In this document: positions 982 to 63,157 of the stretch, one piece after another
Numbering within the stretch: position 1 is the first letter of the stretch
How the letters are laid out: the number at the start of each line of letters is the position of its first letter
Source: Choricystis sp. odSpoLacu1
Lineage: Eukaryota > Chlorophyta > Trebouxiophyceae
Assembly: GCA_958009055.1 (NCBI GenBank)
Contig: OY253659.1
Span: 186,001-250,000 of the forward strand
Length of the DNA stretch: 64,000 bases
Reading direction: 5' to 3'
Position numbers and translations under genes: made by a program
The notes under the pieces: model-generated
The model's input: the letters and a program-made list of their open reading frames with translations, nothing else
Databases searched by the model: none
Told to the model about the DNA's origin: nothing

Positions 982-2479
982 TCACGCCGTCGCCTTGGCC
1001 TCGGCCCCATGCTTGGACGTCTCCCCGCCCGCGCCATACCCGAGGAACGCGGGGCGGCTCGTCAACCCCAGCGTCTCAAACAGCTTCTCATCATCCGCCC
1101 TGTCCGCGTTGGCGGTCGTCAACAGTTTGTCGCCGTCAAAGATGGAGTTGGCGCCCGCCAGGAAAGCCAGGGCTTGGTCGCCGGCGCCCATGTCTCTGCG
1201 CCCTGCGGAGAGGCGTACCATGGAGCGCGGCATCGTGATGCGCGCGGTGGCGACACACCGAACAACGTCGAGAGGGGTGGGCGGCTCAGCGTTTTGCAGG
1301 GGCGTACCAGGGACAGCCACCAGTGCATTGATCGGCACCGACTCTGGGTGGGCGGGCAGGGTGGAGAGGGTGTGGAGCAGGCCGACGCGGTCGGAGCCGG
1401 ATTCGCCCAGCCCAATGATCCCACCCGCGCACACAGAGACGCCGGCTTCACGCACAGCGGCCAGCGTGGCCAGGCGGTCGGCGTACGTGCGAGTCGATGT
1501 GATCTTGGCGTAGTGTTCGGGGGAGGTGTCGACGTTGTGGTTGTAGGCACTCAACCCTGCATCCCGCAGTTGCCCTGCTTGCTCCGCGTTCACCATGCCC
1601 AGCGTGGCGCACACTTCCAGGCCCAGGCCGCGCACTTTGGTGACCATGTCCAGGACGCGGGCCCACTGGCGGGGGCCGACTTGGTCCGGGCCCCGCCACG
1701 CGGCCCCCATGCAGAAACGCGTGGAGCCGGCCGCTTTCGCTCTCACCGCCGCCTCGAACACGGTGTCCAGGTCCAGCAGCTTGGTGGCCTCCGTCTCCGT
1801 CTTGTGGTTTGAGGACTGGGAGCAGTAGCCACAGTCTTCGGGGCAGCCACCCGTTTTGACGGAGAGCAGGGTGCAGCGCTGCACTTGGGACGGGTTGTGG
1901 TGGGTCCTGTGCACGGTGGCGGCCGCGTGGACCAGGTCGAGGAGGGGGGTGTTGTAGACGGCCGAGATTTCGTCGCGGCTGGGGTGGGAGGGTGGTGGTG
2001 GTGGTGGCGTGAGGGTGGGGTCGCGGCGCGGCGACCCCAGCCACAGAGGAAGCAACGTCTCCTTGAAAGCTTGTGTGGCCTCTGCCCCCCCCCTGCCCCC
2101 CCCACGCCAACCCAATGCACGCGGTCACTCAACGCCAGCATAGCTCCACACGTCCCCCGGGCGGGACAGGGGGGACAGGCGGCCGCGCGCGCGCGCAGCA
2201 CCACCCACCCCCGAGCAAAAAAGGGGCGGCCACCAGTCGCATTCGGCCGTCGTGCGCTCCTTGCGCCGCACCCTCTCCCCTCCTCCCTCCCAACAACACT
2301 CACGTCCAGTCCGTCCTCACAACCCCCAGCTCACGCCGCCACCGCGGCACGTCGGAGGACGCGTCCGTGGGCAGCGCGTCCTCCGCGACGGCGGGCAGCG
2401 ACGCCGCGGACCGCGTCGCGGCCGGGGCCAGCGCGCGGGTCGCGGCGCGGCGGGCCGCGTGGGCGGCGGTGGTCAGCAT
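982..2479 (-). CDS. BIO2: Biotin synthase, mitochondrial-type, two exons
   Basis: Radical-SAM enzyme inserting sulfur into dethiobiotin, the last step of biotin synthesis. Exon 1 is 2304-2479 and exon 2 is 982-1978, joined across a GTGAGT...CCCAG intron; together 390 residues, close to the family size. Exon 1 gives an Ala/Arg-rich presequence (start MLTTAAHAARRAATRAL) typical of mitochondrial import, matching the location of plant BIO2, and then RTDW, which continues as the TRDEISAVYN helix in exon 2. The 4Fe-4S motif CPEDCGYC follows SVKTGG, and YNHNVDTSPE, the SAM-site region and RLSAGR are conserved. It is head-to-head with the hydroxylase-like gene across about 210 bp and lies near BIO3-BIO1 and KAPA synthase. 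Start chosen because the upstream in-frame codons lack the presequence character. Confidence 0.96.
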
Positions 2480-2688
2480 ATTTTTTGGCGTGAGAGTGGG
2501 GACGGTGAAAATAAGAGCAACACGGAGAGGGCGCGTGCGCGGAACGGAGCTTTTGTTTTTCGCCCGCGGTTTTGGCTGCGACTGCACAAGCACACTCGTC
2601 TCTCTCTCTCTTTGCGCGGGCGTGTTTTGTCATCGGGAGAAGACGCCGAACCTCCCCCCCCCCCCCCCCCATACCACCCTCCCTCACC
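2480..2688. promoter_or_regulatory. Bidirectional promoter region between biotin synthase and hydroxylase-like gene
   Basis: Only 209 bp separate the two start codons of divergent genes, so both promoters and 5' leaders must lie here. It contains a C-run of about 17 just upstream of the + strand ATG at 2689. No TATA box or known operator was recognised. Confidence 0.5.
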
Positions 2689-3991
2689 ATGTGGCCCCCT
2701 CTCATCGGCGGCGGCTACTGGGCCGCCCTGGTGCAGGTGGCCGCAGTTTACTATGGATACGCAGCCATCCTGCACTGGCTGGTGCCCGCCCTGTTCCCCG
2801 CCTCCGCCCTGCCGTCGCTGCAGGTGGCGCCTCGGAGGCCGGGCCAGGTGGCGGCTGAAGCGGCGCACTCGTTGGGTGAGTTTGGGTTGGGGGGTGGGAG
2901 CGAGACGCATTTTTTGGCGCGCCACGGCTGGCCGCTGCGCGCCTCCCATGCCGCGCCGCACAGCCTGGACGCACCACCACGCCCTGCGTGTTGGAGGTCT
3001 GACTCACTCTCACTCGGACCAGCGGCGAGGCGGGAGCAGGCACCAGGGCGGTCGGCAAGCACGGCGGAGCAATGGCGCGCCTTTTGCTGTTCGACGGCTC
3101 GCAAACCACCACTCGCTCTCACTTCCTCCCACTACACCACCAGGCCCTATCGCCGTCAAAGCCGCCGTTCTGACCGTCGTGGAACGCCTGGCCGCGACCC
3201 CCGGCGCCTCCAAACTGTACGCCGGGTCCCTGCTGGCGTCCCCTGGCGCCTTATTGTATGGATTGGCGACGGTTGCTGTTCTCGACGTTTTGCACGACGC
3301 CTGGTTCTACTGGTCCCACCGCGCCCTGCACGCTCGCCCGGTCTACAGGTCCATCCACGCGTCTCACCATGCGTCGACGTCGCCGACTCCGTTCACCGGG
3401 TACTCGTTCCACGTGGTGGAGGCGGGGGTCGTGTTTGCGAACGAGATTCTCGTCTGCTTCCTGTTCCCCATCCACGCCGGCCTGCACCGCGCCTACCACC
3501 TGTACACGACAGGCATTCACTGCGGGGGGCACGCAGGGTACGAGATCGCGCCGTATGTGCCGTCGTTGGCGGGGCTGGTGGTGGCGGTGGTCGAAAAAAT
3601 TGCGCCGAGGCTGGGCGCTGCCGGCCGCGCCACCCTCAACACCGTCCAACACCACGACCTGCACCACCGCTTTCCGTCGACCCATTTCTCGCTGTACTTC
3701 ACCTTCTGGGACGCGCTGTGCGGCACCGAGCACCCTGGCTACAGAGCCATCGTGGCCCCTGCGCCCGCGGCCACCGCGGACGCTGCCACCAAAGCCGTCG
3801 CCCTGGCGTCCGCATCCAGAGCCGCGGCAGCTGCCAAGAAGAGGGGGGGAGAGGAGGTGCCGCCGCTGGACGCGCTGGCACCACCCGCCAAGGCCGCGCC
3901 GCCGCGCGCGCCGCGCTCGCGGCCGGCGTCGCCCGCCATCGGGGCGTGGCGCCCGCGGCGCAGTGCGCGCATGACGGCCGCGTCAGCGTAG
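2689..3991 (+). CDS. Fatty acid hydroxylase / sterol desaturase superfamily membrane protein
   Basis: Two exons, 2689-2875 and 3144-3991 (344 residues). A hydrophobic first segment (about residues 5-40) is followed by a second membrane region that runs into the three histidine boxes of the ERG3/FA-hydroxylase superfamily: HDAWFYWSHRALH, HASHHAS and HHDLHHRFP. These ligate a di-iron centre that uses O2 to hydroxylate or desaturate lipid substrates in the ER; the exact substrate cannot be told from sequence. The C-terminal ~85 residues are Ala/Pro/Arg-rich and probably disordered. The gene shares a promoter with biotin synthase and is followed by the Nudix gene on the same strand. It could be a C-5 or C-4 sterol oxidase relative, a sphinganine hydroxylase relative, or a lipid hydroxylase supplying the biotin pathway (speculative). 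Confidence 0.88.
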
Positions 3992-4284
3992 ATGAGAGGT
4001 AAAGGAAATGTGACGGTGGTTTTCATTCTGTTTTTCGGCGTGCCGGCAGCTGAGAAGGGTCGCGTCGCGCCCTTTCTTCCTGGGGTTCTCTGTTTTTCAT
4101 TTTTGCGCACACGAAACGAAACGAAACAGCGACCCCTTCTTCTTCATTGCTCTTCTGTGTGTGTGGGGTGTGTGCTTGACTTTTTTTCTCATTGTGTGAC
4201 ACTGTGCGACTTCCCTTTGCAAAAACAAACAACCGCGCGAGAGAACGAAACCACTGCCGTTCGTTTGTTTTCCTCTCTCCTTCG

Positions 4285-5530
4285 ATGGTGCTGCCCCGCC
4301 ACGCCGTCCGTGCCTACGCAGGCGGCGCCCCCGCCGCCGGCCCCGCGCCTCGGCGCCCCCGCCGTGCAGCCGCCGCCGCGCCCGCTCCTCCTCCCGCCGC
4401 GGTGGTGGGTGCTCACGATGAGCCGCGCGAAACGTGTATCTTCATTGATGAGTACAGGCGCAACGTGGGCGTCTGCCTCGTCAACTCGGAGGGGCTGGTG
4501 TTTTGTGCCCGGTGAGTCGGTGTGCCTGGGCTGTGCAGGCGAGAGGGGATAGGGAGGGGCGTGTGGCGGTGCTCAAAGCGATTGGTCGAAAAAAGCACCC
4601 CCACATCGCACCTCTCACACCCACCTCCTCCCTTTCCCCTCCCCCCTCCAGCCGCGTCGACGACACGGAGGGCACGTGGCAGATGCCGCAGGTGCGTGTG
4701 GTGTGTTTTGGGGGCGGGCAGGCCAGAGACACGTGCGCAGCACCAAAAAAGAGCGCCAAAGCGACGCTCTGTGTCCCAATGGGGGGGGGGGGGTGTCTGG
4801 GGCGCGCACACGCCAGCGCCTCTCTCGGCAGCCCACGCCGGCTTAGCGCCTGCCCTCTCGCTAGGGGCGAGCACACTGGCCTGGGCTGGAGGCAGGGAGG
4901 GCAGAGGAGGCCGGGACGGCGCGCGCCAGAGGGTGCCAAAAAAGCACGCGCGAGGGGGTCGCGCGCGCGAGAGGACGACGGCGCTCCTTTTCGCTGTGCC
5001 CCCGCACCGACCCACCCACGTCACACCCACAGGGCGGCATCGACCACCTCGAAAACCCGCTCGCCGCCGCCGCCCGCGAGCTGCGCGAGGAGACGGGCAT
5101 CGTGTCCGCCCGCGTGGTGGCGATCAGTGGGGCGTGGGTGCCGTACGACGCGCCCACCCACGTCAAGGCGCCCCCGCCCGGCACGCCCTTCACCCCCTTC
5201 TCCCCGTCCTCGGACGCCTCGGAAGCCGCCGCCGCTGCCACCCCCCTCAACGGCGCCAACGCGTCCACCACGTGGTTGCGGTACCGGGGCCAGACGCAGA
5301 AGTGGGTGCTCATGTATTTTTATGGCGACGAGCACGAAGAGGTCGACCTCGGCCCCCCCGACGCGCGCGAGTTTTCTGAATACGCGTGGCGCCCCCTGCC
5401 CGACGTCGCGTCCAACGTCGTCCCCTTCAAGCGGCCCGTGTACCAGAGGGTGGCGGCCGAGTTTGGGCCGGTCATCGCGGCGAGGCGGGGGGGCGGGTGC
5501 GAGGAGCCGTGGTGGGGGCGGTGTGTTTGA
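4285..5530 (+). CDS. Nudix hydrolase, RppH / plant NUDX26-27 type
   Basis: Three exons: 4285-4511, 4652-4691 (a 40-nt microexon) and 5033-5530, giving 254 residues. The join of exons 2 and 3 restores WQMPQ-GGID, the signature of bacterial RppH and plastid NUDX26/27 enzymes. The Nudix box follows as GGIDHLENP...RELREETGI with all catalytic Glu and Arg positions present. Members hydrolyse diadenosine polyphosphates, ppGpp or RNA 5' pyrophosphate, releasing pyrophosphate. Residues 1-50 are Ala/Pro/Arg-rich and could be a plastid transit peptide. An insertion of about 40 Pro/Ser/Ala-rich residues lies between the Nudix box and the KWVLMYF strand. Tandem to the hydroxylase gene, and convergent with BIO3-BIO1. 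Confidence 0.9.
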
Positions 5531-6076
5531 ATGGAGGCAAAAAGTTGAGGGTTTTTTTTTTTCTTAGCTGATTTTTATGCTGGCGCGAGAATGAGTTTCC
5601 CCCTCTGGGCGCCGCGGTGCGACAACGCTTTTAGCGCCCGCGAGCGGCAGTGTGTGTTTCATTTTTATGTGTGTGCCCCCCCCCGGCGCACAAGAAAGGG
5701 TTCCTTTTTTTCCACCATCGTTTGTCCGTTGCCCGCTCGCGCGGCCTTGTGCCCCGCCCGACGGAGTATTGTGTGTGTGCCGTTTTACCACCAAAAAACA
5801 TTTTCCACCAAAACAACAACGTTTCGAACCCACTTTTTACCACCACCATTTTTAGTGCTGCATTTTTTTCAACACGCACACCACACCCGTTGATTTTTTG
5901 CTCCACCTTCTTCACCCAACGAACCACAACCACCATCTCTCCTACATGTAAACTGATTTTTATGTGATGAACAATCACGCAGACACAAAACGAATGTCAC
6001 ACAAAAGAATCTGGAACAACACGCCTCACCTCAACCCCTTTCCCCAGCTGTGGAGACCTGTGCTCCACTCCCTCCC
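5531..6076. other. Convergent intergenic region
   Basis: About 545 bp between the stop codons of the Nudix gene and BIO3-BIO1. It is markedly T/A- and C-rich compared with the genes, with poly-T, poly-C and CACCA-rich stretches and no conserved coding frame. Two transcript ends are expected here; no other element was seen. Confidence 0.5.
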
Positions 6077-8942
6077 TCACCCATCCAGCGCCGCCAGCAG
6101 CGCCTCCTGCAGCGCGGCGCCCCCCCCGGGGTCAGAGGTCGGGGCGCGCATGATGTACACCGCGTCCCCCAACGGACGCACGTACACGCCCCCCCCCCGC
6201 CAGGCGGGCCACCACGCCCGCCGCCGCGGTGGAGGCGTAGCCCGCGTCCCCGGTCACGCGCAGGTGGGCGGCCAGCACGGTGCCGATGGCGAAGGCGCGG
6301 TCGACGGAGGGGTGGCGGGCAATCGCTGCCAACCCATCCTCACACCACAGGGGCGCCAGGCGGCCGCACGGCTGGGCGCAGGCACAGAGGGTGGACGTGG
6401 CACCGCCACCACACCCACGCCCCGGCACGCAGATGGCGGGGTTGAGCGTCGGATCCGTGTACGCTGGCAGCGCGGCGGCCGCCGCGCCACACCCGGCCGC
6501 GTGTGCAGAATACGAGTGCCCATGCAGCAGCGCGTTCCTGGTGCCCCCCCCCTTGAAAGAGGCGAAGACGTCATCCGTCGCCAGGGTGGCGGCCAGGGGG
6601 AGGAGGCCGCCTGTCAACAGTTTGGCAAAGGCAGCGACGTCGGGAGTGACCCCCAACAACCCGCACCCGGACACCGCGCCCAAACGCCACAGCCCCGAGA
6701 AGACTTCGTCCGCGACGACCGGGATGGAGCGGGCGCGGGAGGCGTGGACAAAGGCGATCTGGTGTGGTGGTGGTGGTGGTGGTGGGGGGGGGGGGGGGGG
6801 GAGGGGGAGCGTGAGAGAGTCCCCTCCTTTCCTCCCCTCCTCACACCCATCCGCCCCACAAGCCGAGCTCACCTGCCACGCTGGATCGATCAACCGCATG
6901 CCGCCCGCCCCTTGGAGCACGGGCTCAAACAGGGCGGCCCCCACCACCGCGCCGGCCGCTTCGTGCGCGTCCAGAGCGACATCGATCGACTCGCGGTACG
7001 CGCGGCCGACACTGCCCGACGCCCGCTGGCCGCTGAACAGGTCGGCCAGGCCGCCAGGCACGTCGTGTTCGTCACACCCGTCGCTGGCGCCCCCTGCCTT
7101 GGGCACGCGCACTGTCCAGCCGTCGGCGCTGAGACCAGCGGTGGGGGGCGCGAGCGCCAGCGCGCGCCCACTGTACCAGGGCGTCTGCCGCTCATTGAAG
7201 ACGGACGGTGGCGTCGCGTCCATGGCGGCCAGGGTGTCGCCATGGTAGCAGCCGTCCACGGTGAGCACGGTGACAGGGAGGGAAGGCGCGGACGCTGCCT
7301 CGCGCGCGGACGCAACGCGGGGGGCCGCCGCGCGGAACGCCATCTTGAGGCCGACCTCGATGGCGGTGGAGCTGAGGGAGGGTTGGAAACATGGTTGATG
7401 GTGGTTGATGGTGAGGTGTTGTGTGTGTTGAATGTTGGGCGGGTCGACGGGCAGCGCGTCTGCCGTCCCCGTCTCTCCACACGCACACTCACCCGTCGTC
7501 CGACCAAAACACTTTGCCCGCCCACCCCGCTCCCGGCCCCGCCAACAATGCTTCCGCAGCCTGCACCGCGGGCTCGTTGGCGGAGCGAGGGTGGATGACG
7601 TGGCCGTACCTGCCCACGGCCGCCGCGATCGCGCGCCGCACGGCCCCGCCCGCCGCCCCGTGCGCGCCCTGCGTCCACCACGAGGCGCACGCATCGTAGA
7701 GCGGGGTGAGGGTGGGGACGGGGGCGGCGTCGGCCGAGGGCGGGGCGGGGGCGGCGGTGGTGCCGCCGCCGCCGCCGCCGCCGCCACCCTCCCCCCCTCG
7801 CTGCCTCCACGCCAGCGTCATGTAGTGCTCCCCCGCCCTCCCATCGATGGCCATGACGTCTCGGTCCGGGACCAGCCCCTCATGCTGGGTGAAGGGCCAC
7901 CACGTGACTGCCGCGGCGCGGGCGGGGAGGGAGGCAAGATCCGCGGCCGCGGCCTCGGCAACGCCAACTGATGCATCCAGGGCTCTTTCCAACCCTTTCC
8001 GAGCCTCCCCATCCGCCCACGCAACAAAGGACGGGTCTGCGGCGTCGGCAGACACCCAGTCGGCGGGGGGAGGGGGGCAGGGAGGGAGGTGGACAACAGG
8101 GGTCCCCGCTGGCAGCCCCGCCCGCAGCGCGTCCACGTGCCCCGCCGGCGGTGCCCCCGCCACAATGACGCCGACCAGGGGGGCGTGGCCACGGTGGGAC
8201 AGCGCTTCCGCGGCGGCCAGGGTGGTGGAGACACCGCCGAGGCGCGGGGAGGCGACTAAAAGAGGGGGCAGGCGCAGCGACCCCCACGCGTCCGCCTGGG
8301 CGGTGCCGTCGGGGGAGGGGGACAGGGGACCGCCCGCGGTCTCGATGAAGGCAATCGCGGGCGCGGAGGGTGGGTGGGTGGTGGTGACAGCGTGTGCCCA
8401 CTCGGACAGCTCTCGCGCGGTTCGCGCCGCCACGTCAGCAGAGGCGACCCCCTTCCCTCCACTCGCCACCGCGGCGTGGGGAGAGGTGGGCGTGCGCCAC
8501 GCAGTCAGGGTGCGGGCGTAGGAGAGGGGAGGGGAGGCAGTGTGGTTTCGAGGCGGCGGCGCTGCACCGCCACCCTCCCACAACTCTCGTGCATGCTCCC
8601 CCGGCTGCGCCAGCGTCAGCCCCCCCCCCCCTCGCCACGCTGCGCGCGTCATCGTCGCTCGGGTACCCCGTCTGCACGGGCTTGACGTACAGGACGCGCC
8701 ACCCGCGGGCGGCAGCGACGCGCGCGAGGCCGGCACAGACCAGCGTCTTGCCGATGTCGGTGTCGGCGCCCCACACCGCCAGGGCGGGAGGGAAGAGAGG
8801 GCGGCTTGGTGGCGGGGGCGGCAGGGCGGGCGGGCGTGGGGAGTGGGGGAAGGTGGAGGGGGGGGGGGGTCGGGCCGCTGCTGCTGTGCACGCGGCGCGC
8901 GCGGCGCGCGGCCGCGACGAGGGCGGCTGTGCGCAGCAGCAT
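6077..8942 (-). CDS. BIO3-BIO1: Bifunctional dethiobiotin synthetase / DAPA aminotransferase
   Basis: Fused enzyme carrying out the two middle steps of biotin synthesis: KAPA to DAPA (aminotransferase) and DAPA to dethiobiotin (ATP-dependent carboxylation). Exons 7493-8942, 6873-7371 and 6077-6758, about 876 residues. Order: mitochondrial presequence (MLLRTAALVAAARRARR), synthetase with P-loop GADTDIGKT, VKPVQTG and IETAGG, then the PLP aminotransferase with WWPFTQHEGL, FWSDDGSTAIE, CYHGDT, ADEVFSGLWRLG and the PLP lysine in FAKLLTGG. As read the frame breaks three times, each in a homopolymer: G-run near 8858-8869, C-run 8620-8631 and C-run 6189-6198. One-base corrections restore conserved sequence on both sides, including the C-terminus around VYVRPLGDAVYIM. 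Probably an intact gene with sequence errors. Head-to-head with KAPA synthase. Confidence 0.93.
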
Positions 8943-9267
8943 GAATGGAGATTTTGGGCCCCACCGCAACCCCCGCCACACACGCCCGGAAAGCCAGAAG
9001 AGCGGCAGAAAAATGCAAGCGGCTTGTTTCGACGGCACACATGCGCCGGCTGAACCTACACATTGCGGCAACACACTTTTGCGCGCCTGAACCTGTCCCC
9101 GCGCCCAGCCCATCCACGCGAGCGGGAACGTGTCACATGCACGTGTGAAACCGCATGCTTGAAGTTGGGGCGTGTGTGTTGGCGTTGCCCCATTTTGCTT
9201 TCGCCGACCTAGCCACCGTCCCTCCCCCCCGCATTCCGCCCCTTCCCGCGCCCTTCTCCTCCTCCTA
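8943..9267. promoter_or_regulatory. Divergent promoter shared by BIO3-BIO1 and KAPA synthase
   Basis: A 325-bp interval between the start codons of two consecutive biotin-pathway genes, so common control is likely. No TATA box, riboswitch or repeated operator could be identified by eye. Green algae are not known to use a biotin riboswitch, and none is seen here. Confidence 0.55.
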
Positions 9268-10732
9268 ATGGCCTGGCCCGGCGGCTGGAGCCCCTGGCTG
9301 GCCTCCTCCCTCTCCCGCCTGACCGCGGCCGACAGGCTGCGCACCCTGCGCGCGGTCACGCCGACGACCAACGCGGTGCGCGTGACCGTCCCGTCCTCCA
9401 CGCTCGCCGCCTGGGCGGCATCGTATGATGGCGGTGAGGAAGCTGGCGGCAGTGGCCTGCCGTCGTCTTCTGCCAATGATAACAAAACGGTGACTCTTTT
9501 TTCTACCAACGATTACCTTGGCCTCTCCACCCACCCGGCCGTCCGGGCAGCCGCCGCCTCCGCCGCCGCAGCCGTGGGCTGCGGCCCCCGCTCCTCCGCC
9601 CTAGTGGGGGGTGGGTACACGGTGGCCCACGCTGAGCTGGAGGCAGCACTCGCAGACTTAAAAGAAGCAGAAGCATGCTTGCTGTTCGCCACGGGCTTCG
9701 CCGCCAACACGGCGGTGCTGGGCGCGTTTGCCAGGTGAGAGAGAAGGAGTGTGCGTGTGTGTGTGTGTGTGGAGGGAGAGGACACACAAGAGGAAGGATG
9801 GAAAACGAACACACACACGACGACGATGACCGTTTTTCCTCGAACCCCTCCCTTTTCCACTCCCTCCCCTCCCACACAGCTCCCCCGACGTCGCAATCTT
9901 CTCGGACGCCCTCAACCACGCCTCCATCGTGGACGGCGCTCGTCTGGCGTCGCGAGGAGGGGGGGCCACCCTGCACATATACCCGCACAACGACGTGGCG
10001 ACGTTGGATGCAGCTCTTTCCGCGCGCCCGCCCTCCGCGTGCCGCGCGATTGTCGTCACCGACTCCCTCTTCTCCATGGACGGCGACTTCGCTGATCTTG
10101 CCGCCCTGGCCTCCCTCAAGCGCAAGCACGGCTTTCTGCTGGTGCTGGATGAAGCGCACGCCACGCTGGCGTGTGGCCCGCGCGGCGGCGGCGCGGCCGA
10201 CGCGGCGGGCGTGTCCTCACACGTCGACATCCACGTGGGCACCCTGTCCAAAGCGTTTGGCGCGCACGGCGGCTTTGTCGCCCTCTCGCGCGACGCCAAA
10301 GCCTACCTGGCCAACGCGGGGCGGAGCTACGGCTTTTCGACCGCGCCGCCCGCGCCCGCCGTGGCCGCAGCGACCGCCGCGCTCGCCGTCTCCCGCGCCG
10401 AGCCGTGGCGAAGGGTGACCCTGGCCAAGCACGCGTCCCGCGTGGCTGCGGCCGTGGGGGCGCCCCCTCCCCCCGTCGGAGCGGGGGAGACGGCGGTGTC
10501 GCCAATCATACCAGTCGTGTTGGGACCGGAAGCCGCAGCACTCAAAGCGTCAGCGTCCCTCCTCCGCGCCGGCCTGCACGTCCCCGCCATCCGCCCCCCC
10601 ACCGTGCCTCCGGGCACGTCCAGGCTGCGGGTCAGCGTGTCGTCCGCGCACAGCGAGGCGGATGTGGAGAGGTTGTTGGTGGAGTTGGGGAGGGCGGGCG
10701 TGAGCGCGGCAGGTGGGGTGGCGCGGTTGTGA
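9268..10732 (+). CDS. BIOF: KAPA synthase (7-keto-8-aminopelargonate synthase) with PTS1-like end
   Basis: PLP enzyme condensing pimeloyl-CoA with L-alanine, the first committed step of biotin synthesis. Two exons, 9268-9734 and 9880-10732 (439 residues). Conserved landmarks of the alpha-oxoamine synthase family: STNDYLGLSTHP, GCGPRSSALVGGGY, FATGFAANTAVLGAF, SDALNHASIVDG, LDEAHATL and the PLP lysine in GTLSKAFGAHGGF. The intron joins the exons inside AFASSPDVAIFSDA. The protein ends in Ala-Arg-Leu, a peroxisomal PTS1-type tripeptide, consistent with the peroxisomal KAPA synthase described in fungi and plants. Divergent from BIO3-BIO1; a member of the local biotin cluster. The Gly-rich motifs separate it from serine palmitoyltransferase only moderately, but context settles the call. 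Confidence 0.94.
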
Positions 10733-51891: not shown

Positions 51892-52044
51892 TCAAAGGAG
51901 CAGTCCGCACTCGCACCAACCCGAGGGGGGCGCGCCGTTTGTTTTTCGGGGCGGATAGAGACGACGGCCGTTTTTTGGGCGCTCCTACAAACGCGTATTT
52001 GCAATCCCCGTTAGCTCCCCCTCAACCAATCCAAAGAACTCAAG

Positions 52045-52424
52045 GTGCGTGTCCCCGCCCCCAATCGCAGTCGCCGCGCACTGCCGCGCCATCCGCGCGC
52101 GCGCGGATCGGGGCGCCCGCGGCCGCGGCACGCGCATCAGGCGGCCGCCGGCGGCCGGAGGCAGCGCGCGCAAAGGCAGCGGCTGCGCGGCAGCGCCCCC
52201 CTCCACCGCCCTGCCCGGCGCGCCCGCTCTCCCTGTATTCAGGCCGATGCAGGCGCCCTGCGCCCCTGGCCATTGGCCGGGCGGGCTGTCCCCGCCCGCC
52301 AGCCTGGTGGGCGGCGCGTGCTTGGCCGGCGCACGCGTTTCGAAACGACCCCTTCCCGCCGGTTTTTCCTCACCCCCGCGCCGCCCTCGCTCACCCTCCC
52401 TCCCTCTCCTCGCCCCTTCCATAG
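52045..52424 (+). other. Probable 5'UTR intron of the MAT gene
   Basis: A GTGCGT donor after CTCAAG at about 52044 and an acceptor CCATAG that ends directly before the MAT start codon at 52425 fit an intron of about 380 bp in the 5' leader. The interval is very GC-rich and has no conserved protein-coding frame. Confidence 0.5.
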
Positions 52425-53823
52425 ATGGCGGACACCGACACCTTCCTCTTCACCTCGGAGTCGGTCAATGAAGGCCACCCCGACAAGCTGGCGGACCAGG
52501 TGTCCGACGCGATCCTCGACGCGTGCCTCGAGCAGGACCCCGATGCCAAGGTGCGTGGGGAGAGAAAAGGGGAAGGATCTCGTGTGTGCCTGTGCCTCGC
52601 TTCGTCCCCACGCGATGGTAAACCATTGCGTGCGTCTCTGTGGGGGGGGAGGCGCGGGCCCGAGGGGACGGAGGGGGGCGGGCACGCGGGGGAGGGGGGG
52701 GGGGGAACCGAGCGCGCGCGCTTTTTCGACTGCGAGCGTCCCACACTCACCCTCCCCTCCCTCCCACCACCACCAGGTCGCCTGCGAGACCGCCACCAAG
52801 ACCAACATGATCATGGTGTTCGGCGAGATCACGACGACCGCCAAGGTGGACTACGAAGCCGTCGTGCGCAAGACGGCTCGTGAGATCGGGTTCACCTCGG
52901 ACGACGTCGGCCTCGACGCCGACAAGTGCAAGGTGCTCGTCCACCTGGAGGAGCAGTCCCCCGACATCGGCCAGGGCGTGCACGGCCTGGGCACCAAGAC
53001 GCTGGAAGAGATAGGCGCGGGCGACCAGGGCCACATGTTTGGCTACGCGACGGATGAGACCGACGAGCTCATGCCTCTGACCCACGTGCTGGCCACCCAG
53101 CTGGGCCACAGGCTGACCGTCGTCCGCAAGGACGGCACCGTCCCCTGGCTCCGCCCCGACGGCAAGACCCAGGTGACCGTCGAGTACAAAAAGGACGGCG
53201 GCGCCATGGTGCCGATCCGGGTGCACACCATCCTGATCTCCACCCAGCACTCGCCCGACGTGACCAACGAGCAGATCGCCAAAGACCTGCAGGAGCACGT
53301 CATCAAGCCCATTGTGCCCGCCAAGTACCTGGACGACAAGACCATCTTCCACCTGAACCCGTCGGGGCGCTTCGTCATCGGCGGCCCCCACGGCGACGCC
53401 GGGCTGACTGGGCGCAAGATCATCATCGACACGTACGGCGGCTGGGGCGCGCACGGCGGCGGCGCGTTCTCGGGCAAGGACCCGACCAAGGTGGACCGGT
53501 CGGGCGCCTACATCGCGCGCCAGGCCGCCAAGTCGATCGTGGCCTCCGGCCTCGCGCGCCGCGCCCTCGTCCAAGTCTCCTACGCCATCGGTGTCGCCCA
53601 ACCCCAGTCCGTGCACGTGGACATGTACGGCACCGGCAACATCCCGGACAAAGAGATCCTGGCCAAAGTGCTCAAGGCCTTCGACTTCCGCCCGGGGCTG
53701 ATTGCGCGCGCGCTCGACCTGTCCAAGCCGCGCTACCTGAAGACGGCCGCCTACGGCCACTTTGGGCGGGAGCCGACGGACGTGTTCACGTGGGAGAAGA
53801 CGGTGGACCTGAACAAGGTCTGA
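52425..53823 (+). CDS. METK: S-adenosylmethionine synthetase
   Basis: Makes SAM from methionine and ATP in the cytosol. Two exons, 52425-52550 and 52777-53823 (390 residues, the normal length). Exon 1 has [20 protein letters not shown] with the catalytic His and Lys; later come [37 protein letters not shown], the hexapeptide GGAFSGKD and [13 protein letters not shown]. Very similar to plant enzymes and the best conserved protein in the window. Supplies SAM to, among others, biotin synthase and aminotransferase steps. No frame problems despite high GC. Confidence 0.98.
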
Positions 53824-60497: not shown

Positions 60498-63157
60498 CTA
60501 CACGTACGGCGTCGGCCGCGCCTCCATCCTCACCGTGCGCGTCTCCTTGGGCGGGTCGCGCGGCCCGGACACAACCTCCACCCTCACCCCTTCCACCTCC
60601 AGCGGCACCGCCGCCCGCCCCCCGCCACACGTGGACAGGAAAAGGTTGAGGCGGGACTGCAGGTCGGCCCGGGCTTCGTCGGTGGCAAAGCCGGCGGGGT
60701 AGGTGTAGAGTTCTGTGCGCACGCCCCGCTTTCGCGCGTCACTGTTAAATTCCTCGACCTCTTTCACGCGGTCGCCGGTGTCGCCCGCCACCGCTTGAAA
60801 CGTGGGGGCTTTCAGATTCCCCACATTGTGCAGTGGCGAGATGGAGCGCGCCAGGGCGGCGTCGGCCTTGCCTTCGGGCGAGTTGCGCGGGGGGGGGAGG
60901 GAGTTTTGCAAACCCGGGCGGCTGCAGCGGCGCCACGCTGTCAACCGCGACCGCGCCATTCACAGAGGCGGCGCACCCGGTGACGGAGGTGGCTGTGGCG
61001 TTGGACGTGGCGGCATCCAGGGAGGCGTAGCCGCCGAAGTCAAAGCCCAGGAAGGACACGCGCGAAGGGTCGGCAACCCCCGCCTCGACCGCCCACGCGG
61101 CCGCGTCGACCAGGTCCGTCGTCATGCCACGCCCCCATTGATCCACGCCAGCCTTGGAGAACGCGCGCCCAAACCCACCACTGCCCCTGAAGTTGACGCG
61201 CAGCACGGCGTAGCCTCGGTTGGCGAGGGCCTGGGTGGTCGGGTCCCACCCCCACGCGTCGCGCGTCCAGGGGAGGGGGCGGGTGAGCACAACGAGCGGC
61301 ACCCGGCCTCCGCTCGCGTTCCACCCAGGCTGCAGTTTGGGGAGTGTCAGGTAGGAGGGCAGCTTCAGGCCGTCCCGCGCCACCGGCGTGACCGCGCGCG
61401 TCGGCACGAGCGGCGCGGTCGCGAGGGACGGCGCCTCCGACACCTGCCGCGCGACGCTGCCCGCCACCACGTCAAACAGGTAGTAGGTGGGAGGCTCCAC
61501 ATCGCTGGTCAGCTTGAGGATGGACAGGCCGCCCGCGGACGAGGCGACCGCATAGTCTTGCGACCCGTTGAACGCGGACTTGAGGGTGGCCACGTTTTTT
61601 TCGGCAAACGCGTCGAGCGGAATCCATTTGCGGCGCTCAACCTCGGTCGCCACCGCCACCAGACTCCCATCCGTCGCGTCGAACGCGGTGTCCACGATGC
61701 CGGCGTCCGGGGAGGAGGCGAGCACGGGCCACGGGGTGGAGCCGTTGACCGGGACCTGGTGGAAAGAAAAGAAGGCAGCACGGGTGAGTGCCAAGGTCGA
61801 GACGCGCGCGGTGGTGGCCTCCCTCCCTCACACCCTCTTCCCCGCCCCTGTCTCTCTCTCTCCCACTCTCTCTCTCTCTCTCTCTCACACACACCTTGAC
61901 CAACCGCACATAGTCCGCCCCCACGCTCGTCAACACGTACAGCGCGGCGCCCGTGTCGGTGAATGCAAACGCGTGCCCCGCGGACGACACCGGCAAAAAT
62001 GTGTCGTCCGCGCTCCAGCTGGCCACGTCCCTCCACTCAGTCGTTGGCCCATCATCCGCAGGCGAACCAACCAGCGTGTCGTTGTCAAACCCGCCCCTCA
62101 CCGTGCGCACGCGCAGGGTGCCGCCCCCACCCTTGGTGAGCGCGCGCGCGCCACGCACGCGCAGCCACTTGTCTGGAATCGACGCTCCCACGTCCCCCGG
62201 GTTGGTGGTGTCCAGGGCCAGGGTCCCCGTCGTCGTGTTGAGGCGGTAGACGTCAAACAGGCCGGGGGAACGTTCGTCCAGAGTGACAAGCGCACCCCCG
62301 GGCACGCGGTCCGACAAAAAGAACTCGCCCACGTTGATGGTGCCCGTCGTCAGGCCCTTGGGCAGCACCTGGGCGGGCGCCTTCTTGGAGGGTGGCCGGG
62401 GCGCGCTGGCCAGGGGCACCAAGTCGCGTGGGGTGGAAGCACTGCCGTTGGCACTCAACGACACTGCGTAGATTTTGTATCGATCCCCGCCCTTGGGGTC
62501 GGCCAGAAACAGGATGCCTTTCGAGTCGGACGTCCACAGGTACTGCCCCGGCGCGATGTCTGCTTTCGTCGCGTTGGTGATTTTGATCGGGGGCGGCCGC
62601 TTCGCCTCGTCCGGCCGCTCCCCGCGCGACGCAGCCGCAGCCGCCGCGTGGTCTACCCGCGTCACATACACGTTGAGCGTGGAGGAGGCGGGCTCGGGGG
62701 CCAGGTAGGCCAGCCAGTCGCCGTCGGGGGACAGTTTTGGGTCGGTCGCGACGGGGGGGGCGTACAGGTCCTCCAGTGGAATGAAGGGCACGTCGGCCAG
62801 GGCAGCCTGTGGTGTGTGTGTGTGTGTGTGATTGTGGGATTGGTTGCGAGTGAACGCCAGTGGGGAAGGCGGGCGGCGACACACACGGCCCCCAACACAC
62901 GGCGACACGGCGGGTCCCGTCCCCACGGTATGTTTTTCTTTCGCTCGCGTGCGCGCACTCGCTCCCACGCACCCAAACCCCGCCTCCCTCCCCCCACATT
63001 CACGCACCTTCATGTTCATACCGCGCGTCCCGTTGGCGGGCGCGGTCGGAGCGGGCGCGGGAGCGCCGGCCGAGCGCGCGGGCGCCGGCGACGCCACGGG
63101 GGCGGCGGCCGCGAGGGTGGCGGCCGTGGCCAGGGCCACCGCCAGGAGGTGGCGCAT
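60498..63157 (-). CDS. Secreted prolyl-oligopeptidase (S9)-family protein lacking the catalytic Ser and His
   Basis: Three exons: 63008-63157, 61895-62806 and 60498-61755, about 773 residues. Signal peptide MRHLLAVALATAATLAAAAP. Exons 1-2 give a seven-bladed propeller (WTSDSKGILFLADP, WLAYLAPEP). Exon 3 has the alpha/beta-hydrolase part: LANRGYAVLRVNFRGSGGFG and LGFDFGGYASL. In active S9 enzymes this last motif is GxSxGG; here Asp (residue ~593, codon GAC at 61039-61041) stands in place of the nucleophile Ser. The conserved His loop (usually EGHGF) reads YPAGFATDE and has no His. One frame change at a 9-C run (60890-60898) is probably a length error. Likely a catalytically inactive family member; several Asn-glycosylation sites. 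Confidence 0.85.

Follow-up and report, generated by a model that had tools for sequence, protein, structure and literature searches.

Linked biotin synthesis genes in the green alga Choricystis sp. odSpoLacu1, a gene cluster probably common to other Trebouxiophyceae

The genes for biotin synthase (BIO2), the bifunctional enzyme BIO3-BIO1 and KAPA synthase are located together at positions 982–10732 of the analysed stretch of DNA (64,000 nt, hereafter the window) from Choricystis sp. odSpoLacu1, an alga with a 14.6 Mb genome of ~70% GC. A preliminary description of this DNA had claimed a complete set of genes for the route from pimeloyl-CoA to biotin inside 10 kb, and family matches and gene models bear this out. 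We think it rather probable that the locus is a vertically inherited nuclear biotin cluster of a trebouxiophyte-like green alga, common to other Trebouxiophyceae, in which the transcription of one gene pair is probably coupled. The genes are arranged in the order BIO2-x-x-BIO3/1-KAPA and use both strands. With 7,000 genes assumed, a formula puts the chance that three given genes fall within five consecutive ones at P ~1.2e-6 and a simulation puts it at 1.7e-6, before any correction for the number of pathways that might have caught attention. The locus unites KAPA synthase, BIO3-BIO1 (BioDA) and biotin synthase, the gene content of a eukaryotic biotin cluster. The linkage described earlier is real, but the cluster is interrupted, since two genes lie between BIO2 and the BIO3-BIO1/KAPA synthase pair. 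One belongs to the FA_hydroxylase (sterol desaturase) family (2689–3991, plus strand; PF04116, 68.3 bits), and a sequence search to E 1 gave no relative of known structure for it; the other encodes a NUDIX hydrolase (4285–5530, plus strand), whose last exon matches PF00293 at 54.3 bits. The exon borders of both were set by eye and are approximate, and neither gene has a known tie to biotin.

BIO2 (982–2479, minus strand; exons 2479–2304 and 1978–982) has one intron and encodes 390 aa. The open frame holding its main exon matched TIGR00433 (BioB) at 361.9 bits, over the family cut-off, and the BATS and Radical_SAM domains as well as a CxxxCxxC motif were found in the protein. Its first 30 residues contain four R/K and no D/E, with a muH of 0.55, which suggests an arginine-rich presequence of the mitochondrial type. 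KAPA synthase (8-amino-7-oxononanoate synthase, BIOF/BIO4) is encoded on the plus strand at 9268–10732 (exons 9268–9734 and 9880–10732; 439 aa), starting at the first in-frame ATG. The joined model scored 352.5 bits with bioF, ~100 more than with any other NCBIfam family, although this is under the bioF cut-off of 426, which is tuned to prokaryotes. Its top solved relatives are 8-amino-7-oxononanoate synthases, and the TLSKAFG motif is present. The preliminary description had given all three proteins organelle presequences; this holds, as a prediction, for BIO2 and BIO3-BIO1 but not for KAPA synthase, whose N-terminus on inspection carried no presequence and which ends instead in ARL, a tripeptide that we take to be a peroxisomal signal of the PTS1 type. 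A PTS1-like C-terminal tripeptide is also present in 22 of the 30 KAPA synthase matches named to eukaryotes and in 84 of the best 120 matches overall, and in none of three rows assumed to be bacterial, of which two are named and P0119 is not. Targeting of the window's enzyme to peroxisomes is accordingly a prediction from its C-terminus.

BIO3-BIO1, the bifunctional dethiobiotin synthetase/DAPA aminotransferase, occupies 6077–8942 on the minus strand (exons 8942–7493, 7371–6873 and 6758–6077), and in the gene model its intron donors are GTGAGT and GTGAGC. Each of its frames aligns in two stretches with the 831-residue bifunctional enzyme of PDB entries 4a0f/4a0g, presumably that of Arabidopsis. 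The BioD and BioA domains are fused as in the plant-type enzyme and carry GADTDIGKT (P-loop) and AAFAKLLTGG, which we regard as catalytic motifs. Full-length relatives include P0242 (50%), P0243 (50%) and P0244 (42%). The start at 8942 is a choice, because upstream the frame continues without a stop as far as 9512 and includes one other ATG; it is backed by P0241, a relative with 84% identity across 52% of the query, whose resemblance to the window, judged by eye, begins only at MLLRT. From this start, a mitochondrial-type presequence is predicted.

In the assembly, BIO3-BIO1 does not form a single open frame. Three frame changes interrupt its coding sequence, as they might in a decaying pseudogene of an alga that is losing biotin synthesis. 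All of them fall at G/C runs of 10–12: a G12 run at 8858–8869, a C12 run at 8620–8631 and a C10 run at 6189–6198. P0241 is open at the places that match the first two, and at the third the shift was also called from codon usage, with a training set that included the gene's own exons. The window alone held too few runs for codon-usage frame scoring, so 200 kb were added. Apparent frame shifts were then seen at 4 of 10 scored sites with runs of at least 9, compared with 16 of 471 sites with runs of 5–8. When the two scored sites inside BIO3-BIO1 were removed, shifts remained at three of eight such long runs (p 0.0026). Given the unbroken frame of P0241 at the first two sites and the frame breaks at such runs elsewhere in the genome, the breaks are likely errors of run length in the assembly. 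The joined model is free of stops. BIO3-BIO1 would be functional despite its assembled frame breaks, and the loss of the pathway is improbable.

The genome contigs were searched for further copies with six-frame profile searches in which introns were disregarded, and these revealed no further KAPA synthase, biotin synthase or BIO3. BATS matched two loci, and the one outside the window is HydG (280 bits). Both bioD matches are inside the window. The bioF profile matched three loci elsewhere, and all three were typed as other enzymes. The C2 locus outscored the window's exons in this profile but is a glycine C-acetyltransferase (614.5 bits). At the C12 locus, bioF was the best NCBIfam family (238.3 versus 222.2 bits), but the solved relatives pointed to serine palmitoyltransferase subunit 2; C12 and C16 are the two subunits of that enzyme. 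Of the eight bioA matches that lie elsewhere, the highest-scoring one, on C14, is of the argD type, and one on C7 lies in a frame that by eye resembles ornithine aminotransferase. The window's biotin genes are therefore the only copies found, for BIO1 to the extent of these two typed matches of the eight.

Bacterial bio genes are often found in operons, and the transfer of such an operon would bring the genes in together. Some bacterial KAPA synthases, ~50% identical to that of the window, occur among its best 120 matches, and in the KAPA synthase tree a bacterial clade joins close to the group that contains the window. The three bacterial rows nevertheless form a clade of their own, and the named best matches of all three genes (among the best 120 each) are green algae, with no fungal names in these sets. 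When prokaryote genomes were scanned with KAPA synthase, bacteria and archaea were returned, whose best 80 of 594 loci were 33–47% identical to the query's first algal sequence and displayed no algal synteny. All three genes contain introns and both strands are used, unlike the co-directional, intronless genes of a bacterial operon, and the BIO3-BIO1 fusion is of the eukaryotic type. In the BIO3-BIO1 tree the window groups with environmental rows and then with Prototheca and Chlorella/Micractinium, and in the BIO2 tree it falls within a mixed green-algal group; neither tree held bacterial rows. Among viral contigs searched with BIO3-BIO1, none of 61 pattern matches was confirmed. Horizontal transfer from bacteria is thus already disfavoured and very improbable, and the earlier statements that the DNA is eukaryotic rather than bacterial and that the genome resembles that of a green alga both stand.

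The preliminary description had proposed a comparison of synteny across chlorophytes, and for Trebouxiophyceae the outcome was positive, as judged from hit tables (locus tags and sizes of shared contigs) rather than from reading the DNA. All five Trebouxiophyceae assessable in these tables show linkage of KAPA synthase with BIO3-BIO1, as against none of three other green algae, and KAPA synthase is on the same contig as BIO2 in 4/5 Trebouxiophyceae versus 0/8 other assemblies. In Micractinium tetrahymenae all three genes lie within seven locus tags (007525, 007530 and 007531), in Nannochloris the linked tags are g03439 and g03440, and KAPA synthase is four tags away from BIO3-BIO1 in Trebouxia C0010 (005731 and 005735). 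Four metagenome contigs of 5.9–9.0 kb also bear this pair. Shared contigs of 5–20 kb numbered 4 for the pair (0.039 expected) and those of >20 kb numbered 5 (0.0005 expected); for KAPA synthase and BIO2, there were 6 of >20 kb (0.0 expected). Several cases count against tight linkage. Large contigs that hold the genes at distances not given come from Coccomyxa (4.0 Mb), Myrmecia (4.7 Mb), Picochlorum (1.1 Mb) and Chlorella variabilis (1.6 Mb). In Elliptochloris and Myrmecia the tags are thousands apart on the same contig; in Apatococcus both BIO2 rows are on contigs other than that of KAPA synthase and BIO3-BIO1; and in Bryopsis these two share a contig at 351 tags. As far as tags and shared-contig sizes go, the linkage is conserved beyond one species, and the cluster is therefore not peculiar to this genome. 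This suggests a biotin cluster common to a class that includes many lichen partners. A misassembly that joined unlinked loci is hardly credible: the probable run-length errors do indicate an imperfect assembly, but the same linkage recurs in other assemblies and metagenome contigs, and the host contig is 730 kb long and even in composition.

The divergent starts of BIO3-BIO1 and KAPA synthase are separated by 325 bp (8943–9267, ATG to ATG of the chosen start codons), the spacing given in the preliminary description. Divergent genes <1 kb apart are counted as bidirectional promoter pairs, and this pair falls well under that distance. The region contains CACATGCACGTG with a CACGTG palindrome at 9140, a candidate for an element shared by the two genes. 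No words beyond chance (P 0.16) were common to this region and the region upstream of BIO2. The latter result, together with the two unrelated genes within the cluster, is also what would be expected if a rearrangement in an early trebouxiophyte had by chance brought the genes together and they had stayed close, without function, in compact genomes unshuffled since. Such neutral inertia is possible, if unlikely. Against it, the order of tags differs between this genome, Micractinium (BIO2-x-x-x-x-KAPA-BIO3/1) and Trebouxia C0010, so neighbours appear to change while the linkage stays, provided that tags follow gene order. Selection may be the cause of the linkage. Under the preferred reading of a vertically inherited cluster, KAPA synthase would be imported into peroxisomes through its C-terminal signal and make KAPA there; KAPA would pass to mitochondria, where BIO3-BIO1 would produce diaminopelargonate and dethiobiotin and BIO2 would insert sulphur. 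The 325-bp promoter would couple the transcription of KAPA synthase and BIO3-BIO1, with BIO2 kept nearby, and the clustered genes are probably co-regulated.

The class is of ecological importance. Biotin is secreted by Botryococcus braunii, apparently in larger amounts when bacteria are present (PMC7813871), and a large release of biotin has been reported for a lichen Coccomyxa growing next to a fungus that requires the vitamin (PMC11542873, citing Bednar). A broader proposal is that in Trebouxiophyceae an ancient, selectively maintained cluster, surviving local rearrangement, constitutes one biotin-output module of a peroxisomal and two mitochondrial enzymes that underlies biotin release to bacterial or fungal partners; we put this forward as a doubtful conjecture. 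Conserved adjacency would in any case aid the annotation of algal biotin genes, on which more work has been asked for (PMC11542873).

It is an open question why genes form clusters in eukaryotes, and a class that seems to hold a vitamin pathway together while its relatives keep it apart offers a natural comparison. Clusters of primary-metabolism genes are uncommon in photosynthetic eukaryotes, and plants, to our knowledge, keep their biotin genes dispersed. BIO3-BIO1, BIO2 and BIO4 of Arabidopsis lie at separate loci, whereas those of the window are clustered. Its BIO3-BIO1 is 35% identical to the Arabidopsis protein P0286 over 98%, and Arabidopsis likewise has a bifunctional mitochondrial BIO3-BIO1 and a BioF bearing a PTS1 (PMC3713238). 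Conserved functional gene neighbourhoods in chlorophytes were described by Foflonker and Blaby-Haas for a species set including Coccomyxa C-169, Picochlorum SENEW3 and Chlorella NC64, but in the excerpts of that study biotin is mentioned solely in an example that cites a yeast study and in the entry for that study (PMC7826186). No report of an algal biotin cluster was found among the matches listed for biotin and algal clusters, to the extent of their excerpts. Fungi are known to have clusters of these genes, and the linkage in Trebouxiophyceae is a new result here. In Saccharomyces, biotin genes are also clustered (PMC7267198), but the BIO1-BIO6 cluster has two genes, is subtelomeric and contains a different gene set; biotin prototrophy was regained there through horizontal transfer and duplication (PMC3713238). 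The locus is also paralleled in Aspergillus nidulans, with a three-gene cluster of bioF, bioDA and bioB (PMC7653285); BioF, the BioD/A fusion and BioB of fungi correspond to the three enzymes encoded here (PMC3713238), although that cluster is fungal and the window's genes resemble the proteins of green algae and plants.

The genome of Choricystis sp. odSpoLacu1 comprises 14.59 Mb in 19 contigs with about 70% GC, and the window sits in a contig of 730 kb (C11). Family and structure searches agree on the identities of BIO2 (2479-982, minus strand, one intron), BIO3-BIO1 (8942-6077, minus strand, two introns) and KAPA synthase (9268-10732, plus strand, one intron). The intron-bearing three-enzyme cluster of the preliminary description is thereby upheld, and the gap of the divergent KAPA synthase/BIO3-BIO1 pair is again 325 bp, start codon to start codon. 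Upstream of 8942, the BIO3-BIO1 frame is still open, with one earlier ATG; the start was set at 8942 because the presequence begins there and P0241, an environmental relative, is similar to the window only from there on. An FA_hydroxylase gene (2689-3991) and a NUDIX gene (4285-5530), as far as can be told unrelated to biotin, lie between BIO2 and the pair. By eye, a response-regulator receiver-like reading (about 358-809) stops just before BIO2. S-adenosylmethionine is used in the BIO1 and BIO2 steps; our own reading of the search output places an S-adenosylmethionine-synthetase-like frame at about 52000-53823 on the same contig, which is probably a coincidence.

Linkage in other genomes was read from contig sizes and some locus tags in the match tables. 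The best 120 rows per protein were compared (of 7,974 matches for KAPA synthase, 8,000 for BIO2 and 374 for BIO3-BIO1); rows without a contig size (4, 6 and 7, respectively) were dropped, and some rows are clusters of several contigs represented by the longest alone. Among these rows, identical contig sizes above 5 kb occurred nine times for KAPA synthase with BIO3-BIO1, six times for KAPA synthase with BIO2 and twice for BIO2 with BIO3-BIO1, and jittered sizes gave a chance expectation of at most 0.052 per size class above 5 kb. Below 5 kb, two more KAPA synthase/BIO2 matches are no more than chance would give (0.9 expected). Four of the KAPA synthase/BIO3-BIO1 matches are environmental contigs of only 5.9-9.0 kb, so the two genes are close neighbours there.

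The comparison of synteny with other chlorophytes that had been proposed bears the linkage out: by tags and contig sizes in the best 120 rows, KAPA synthase is linked to BIO3-BIO1 in 5/5 Trebouxiophyceae versus 0/3 others. Class assignments were checked for Micractinium, Apatococcus, Elliptochloris and Nannochloris and follow common usage for the remaining genera. The tags are 7530 and 7531 in Micractinium tetrahymenae (BIO2, 7525), 3440 and 3439 in Nannochloris 'desiccata', and 5735 and 5731 in Trebouxia C0010; Chlorella variabilis offers a common 1.6-Mb contig only. Apatococcus fuscideae has both in a single 1,181-residue model, with BIO2 on a different contig. This model (P0291, WJX84_008815) joins KAPA synthase, BIO3 and BIO1 with no PTS1-like (peroxisomal) end at the junction, and is either a gene-caller merger of co-directional neighbours or a genuine trifunctional fusion. 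The unlinked cases are Pedinophyceae YPF-701, Haematococcus (counted despite doubt over mixed assemblies) and Bryopsis, counted as unlinked with 351 tags between the genes on one contig. Pleodorina, Chlorella vulgaris, Trebouxia C0009 and Sanguina were excluded from the species counts under equal doubt, as their rows possibly come from different assemblies. A contig common to KAPA synthase and BIO2 is found in four of five Trebouxiophyceae (Micractinium, Picochlorum SENEW3, Elliptochloris and Coccomyxa C-169, with Apatococcus the exception) versus none of eight other assemblies in the best 120 rows (Volvox africanus twice, Edaphochlamys, Chlamydomonas eustigma, Bryopsis, Pedinophyceae, Scenedesmus NREL and Haematococcus). 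Rough Fisher p values, which ignore shared ancestry, are 0.018 for KAPA synthase/BIO3-BIO1 and 0.007 for KAPA synthase/BIO2. In Myrmecia, one 4.7-Mb contig carries both BIO2 and BIO3-BIO1. The arrangement is real and probably class-wide.

Provided that locus tags track the order of the genes, the orientation of the pair towards BIO2 in Micractinium is the reverse of that in this genome; the linkage would then have survived a local rearrangement, a point for selection rather than inertia as its cause. The observed arrangement suggests that KAPA synthase and BIO3-BIO1 are probably co-expressed from the common 325-bp region, BIO2 being retained nearby. Within the divergent promoter lies CACATGCACGTG, carrying a single CACGTG palindrome (at 9140, within CACATGCACGTGTG, 9134-9147); both CACGTG and CANNTG are absent from the 210 bases upstream of BIO2.

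Organelle presequences had been ascribed to all the genes, and this stands for two of them. The first 30 residues hold four R/K in BIO2 and five in BIO3-BIO1, without D/E and with helical moments of 0.55 and 0.54, resembling mitochondrial presequences. KAPA synthase (four R/K, one acid, moment 0.31) does not fit; by eye, its N-terminus looks like those of KAPA synthases from other algae, and the last three residues of the protein are ARL. PTS1-like tripeptides end 84 of its 120 best matches, including 22/30 named to eukaryotes and 0/3 taken as bacterial. These predicted signals fit the peroxisome-mitochondrion division of biotin synthesis described for fungi and plants (PMC3713238).

A recent bacterial transfer of the genes is argued against by their introns, by the plant-type BIO3-BIO1 fusion and by top named matches from green algae. 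Quick trees were built for all three. BIO3-BIO1 clusters first with environmental rows, next with Prototheca and after that with Chlorella/Micractinium (SH-aLRT 86-100), and the four-row BIO2 group (99) lies inside 18 green-algal and environmental rows (92), Chlorellales being intermingled with Chlorophyceae and Ulva; both trees were sampled without bacterial rows. The five-row KAPA synthase group is firm (97). The three bacterial rows make up a separate clade (96), and the window's protein is thus not nested among them; this clade joins a 12-row fork (90) with the window's group, Auxenochlorella and haptophytes.

Copy number was assessed with family profiles. Besides BIO2, BATS found one locus (C6:18878-19225), the [FeFe]-hydrogenase maturase HydG (TIGR03955, 280 bits against a cut-off of 312; frame incomplete), which suggests hydrogen metabolism in the alga. 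Two of five bioF matches are the KAPA synthase exons. The one on C2 is a glycine C-acetyltransferase (614.5 bits versus 364.3 for bioF), and those on C12 and C16 have serine palmitoyltransferase subunits 2 and 1, respectively, as closest solved relatives; on C12 the typing rests on these relatives, since bioF was the top NCBIfam family by a small margin. Three of eleven bioA matches come from the window; two of the other eight were typed, the best as argD-type and one on C7, by eye, as ornithine-aminotransferase-like. Both bioD matches lie inside the window, and the profile search of the genome found none outside it.

In the assembly, the reading frame of BIO3-BIO1 shifts at G12 (8858-8869), C12 (8620-8631) and C10 (6189-6198). 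P0241 (497 residues, 84% identity over 52% of the query) is open through the sites matching the first two; the third lies past its end. Sites flanked on either side by a clear coding frame were scored in 264 kb of the genome, made up of the window plus two stretches of 100 kb; shifts occurred at 4/10 G/C runs of at least 9 versus 16/471 runs of 5-8 (Fisher p 0.0004), and with 150-base flanks at 3/5 versus 19/475 (p 0.0008). Two of the ten scored long runs are inside BIO3-BIO1, one being the C10 break, and excluding both leaves 3/8 (p 0.0026); both 12-base runs fell below the scoring threshold, and BIO3-BIO1 was among the training sequences of the codon model. Long G/C runs in this genome thus tend to break the frame, as length errors would, and some calls could reflect an undetected intron edge. 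Gene models may therefore be artificially broken in many places. Further long runs with apparent shifts lie near 108569 and 136398 on C6, near 114250 on C2 and at 60889 in the window.

Among the matches listed in open-licence literature, which lacks most subscription journals, there was no report of an algal biotin cluster; in the accessible part of a green-algal neighbourhood survey, biotin comes up solely in an example that cites work on yeast (PMC7826186). The arrangement merits a direct synteny and expression test. The enzymes themselves are ordinary, and what is new is a variant of a gene cluster type already known: Aspergillus nidulans has a cluster of three biotin genes, as in the window (PMC7653285), and yeast has one of two (PMC7267198).
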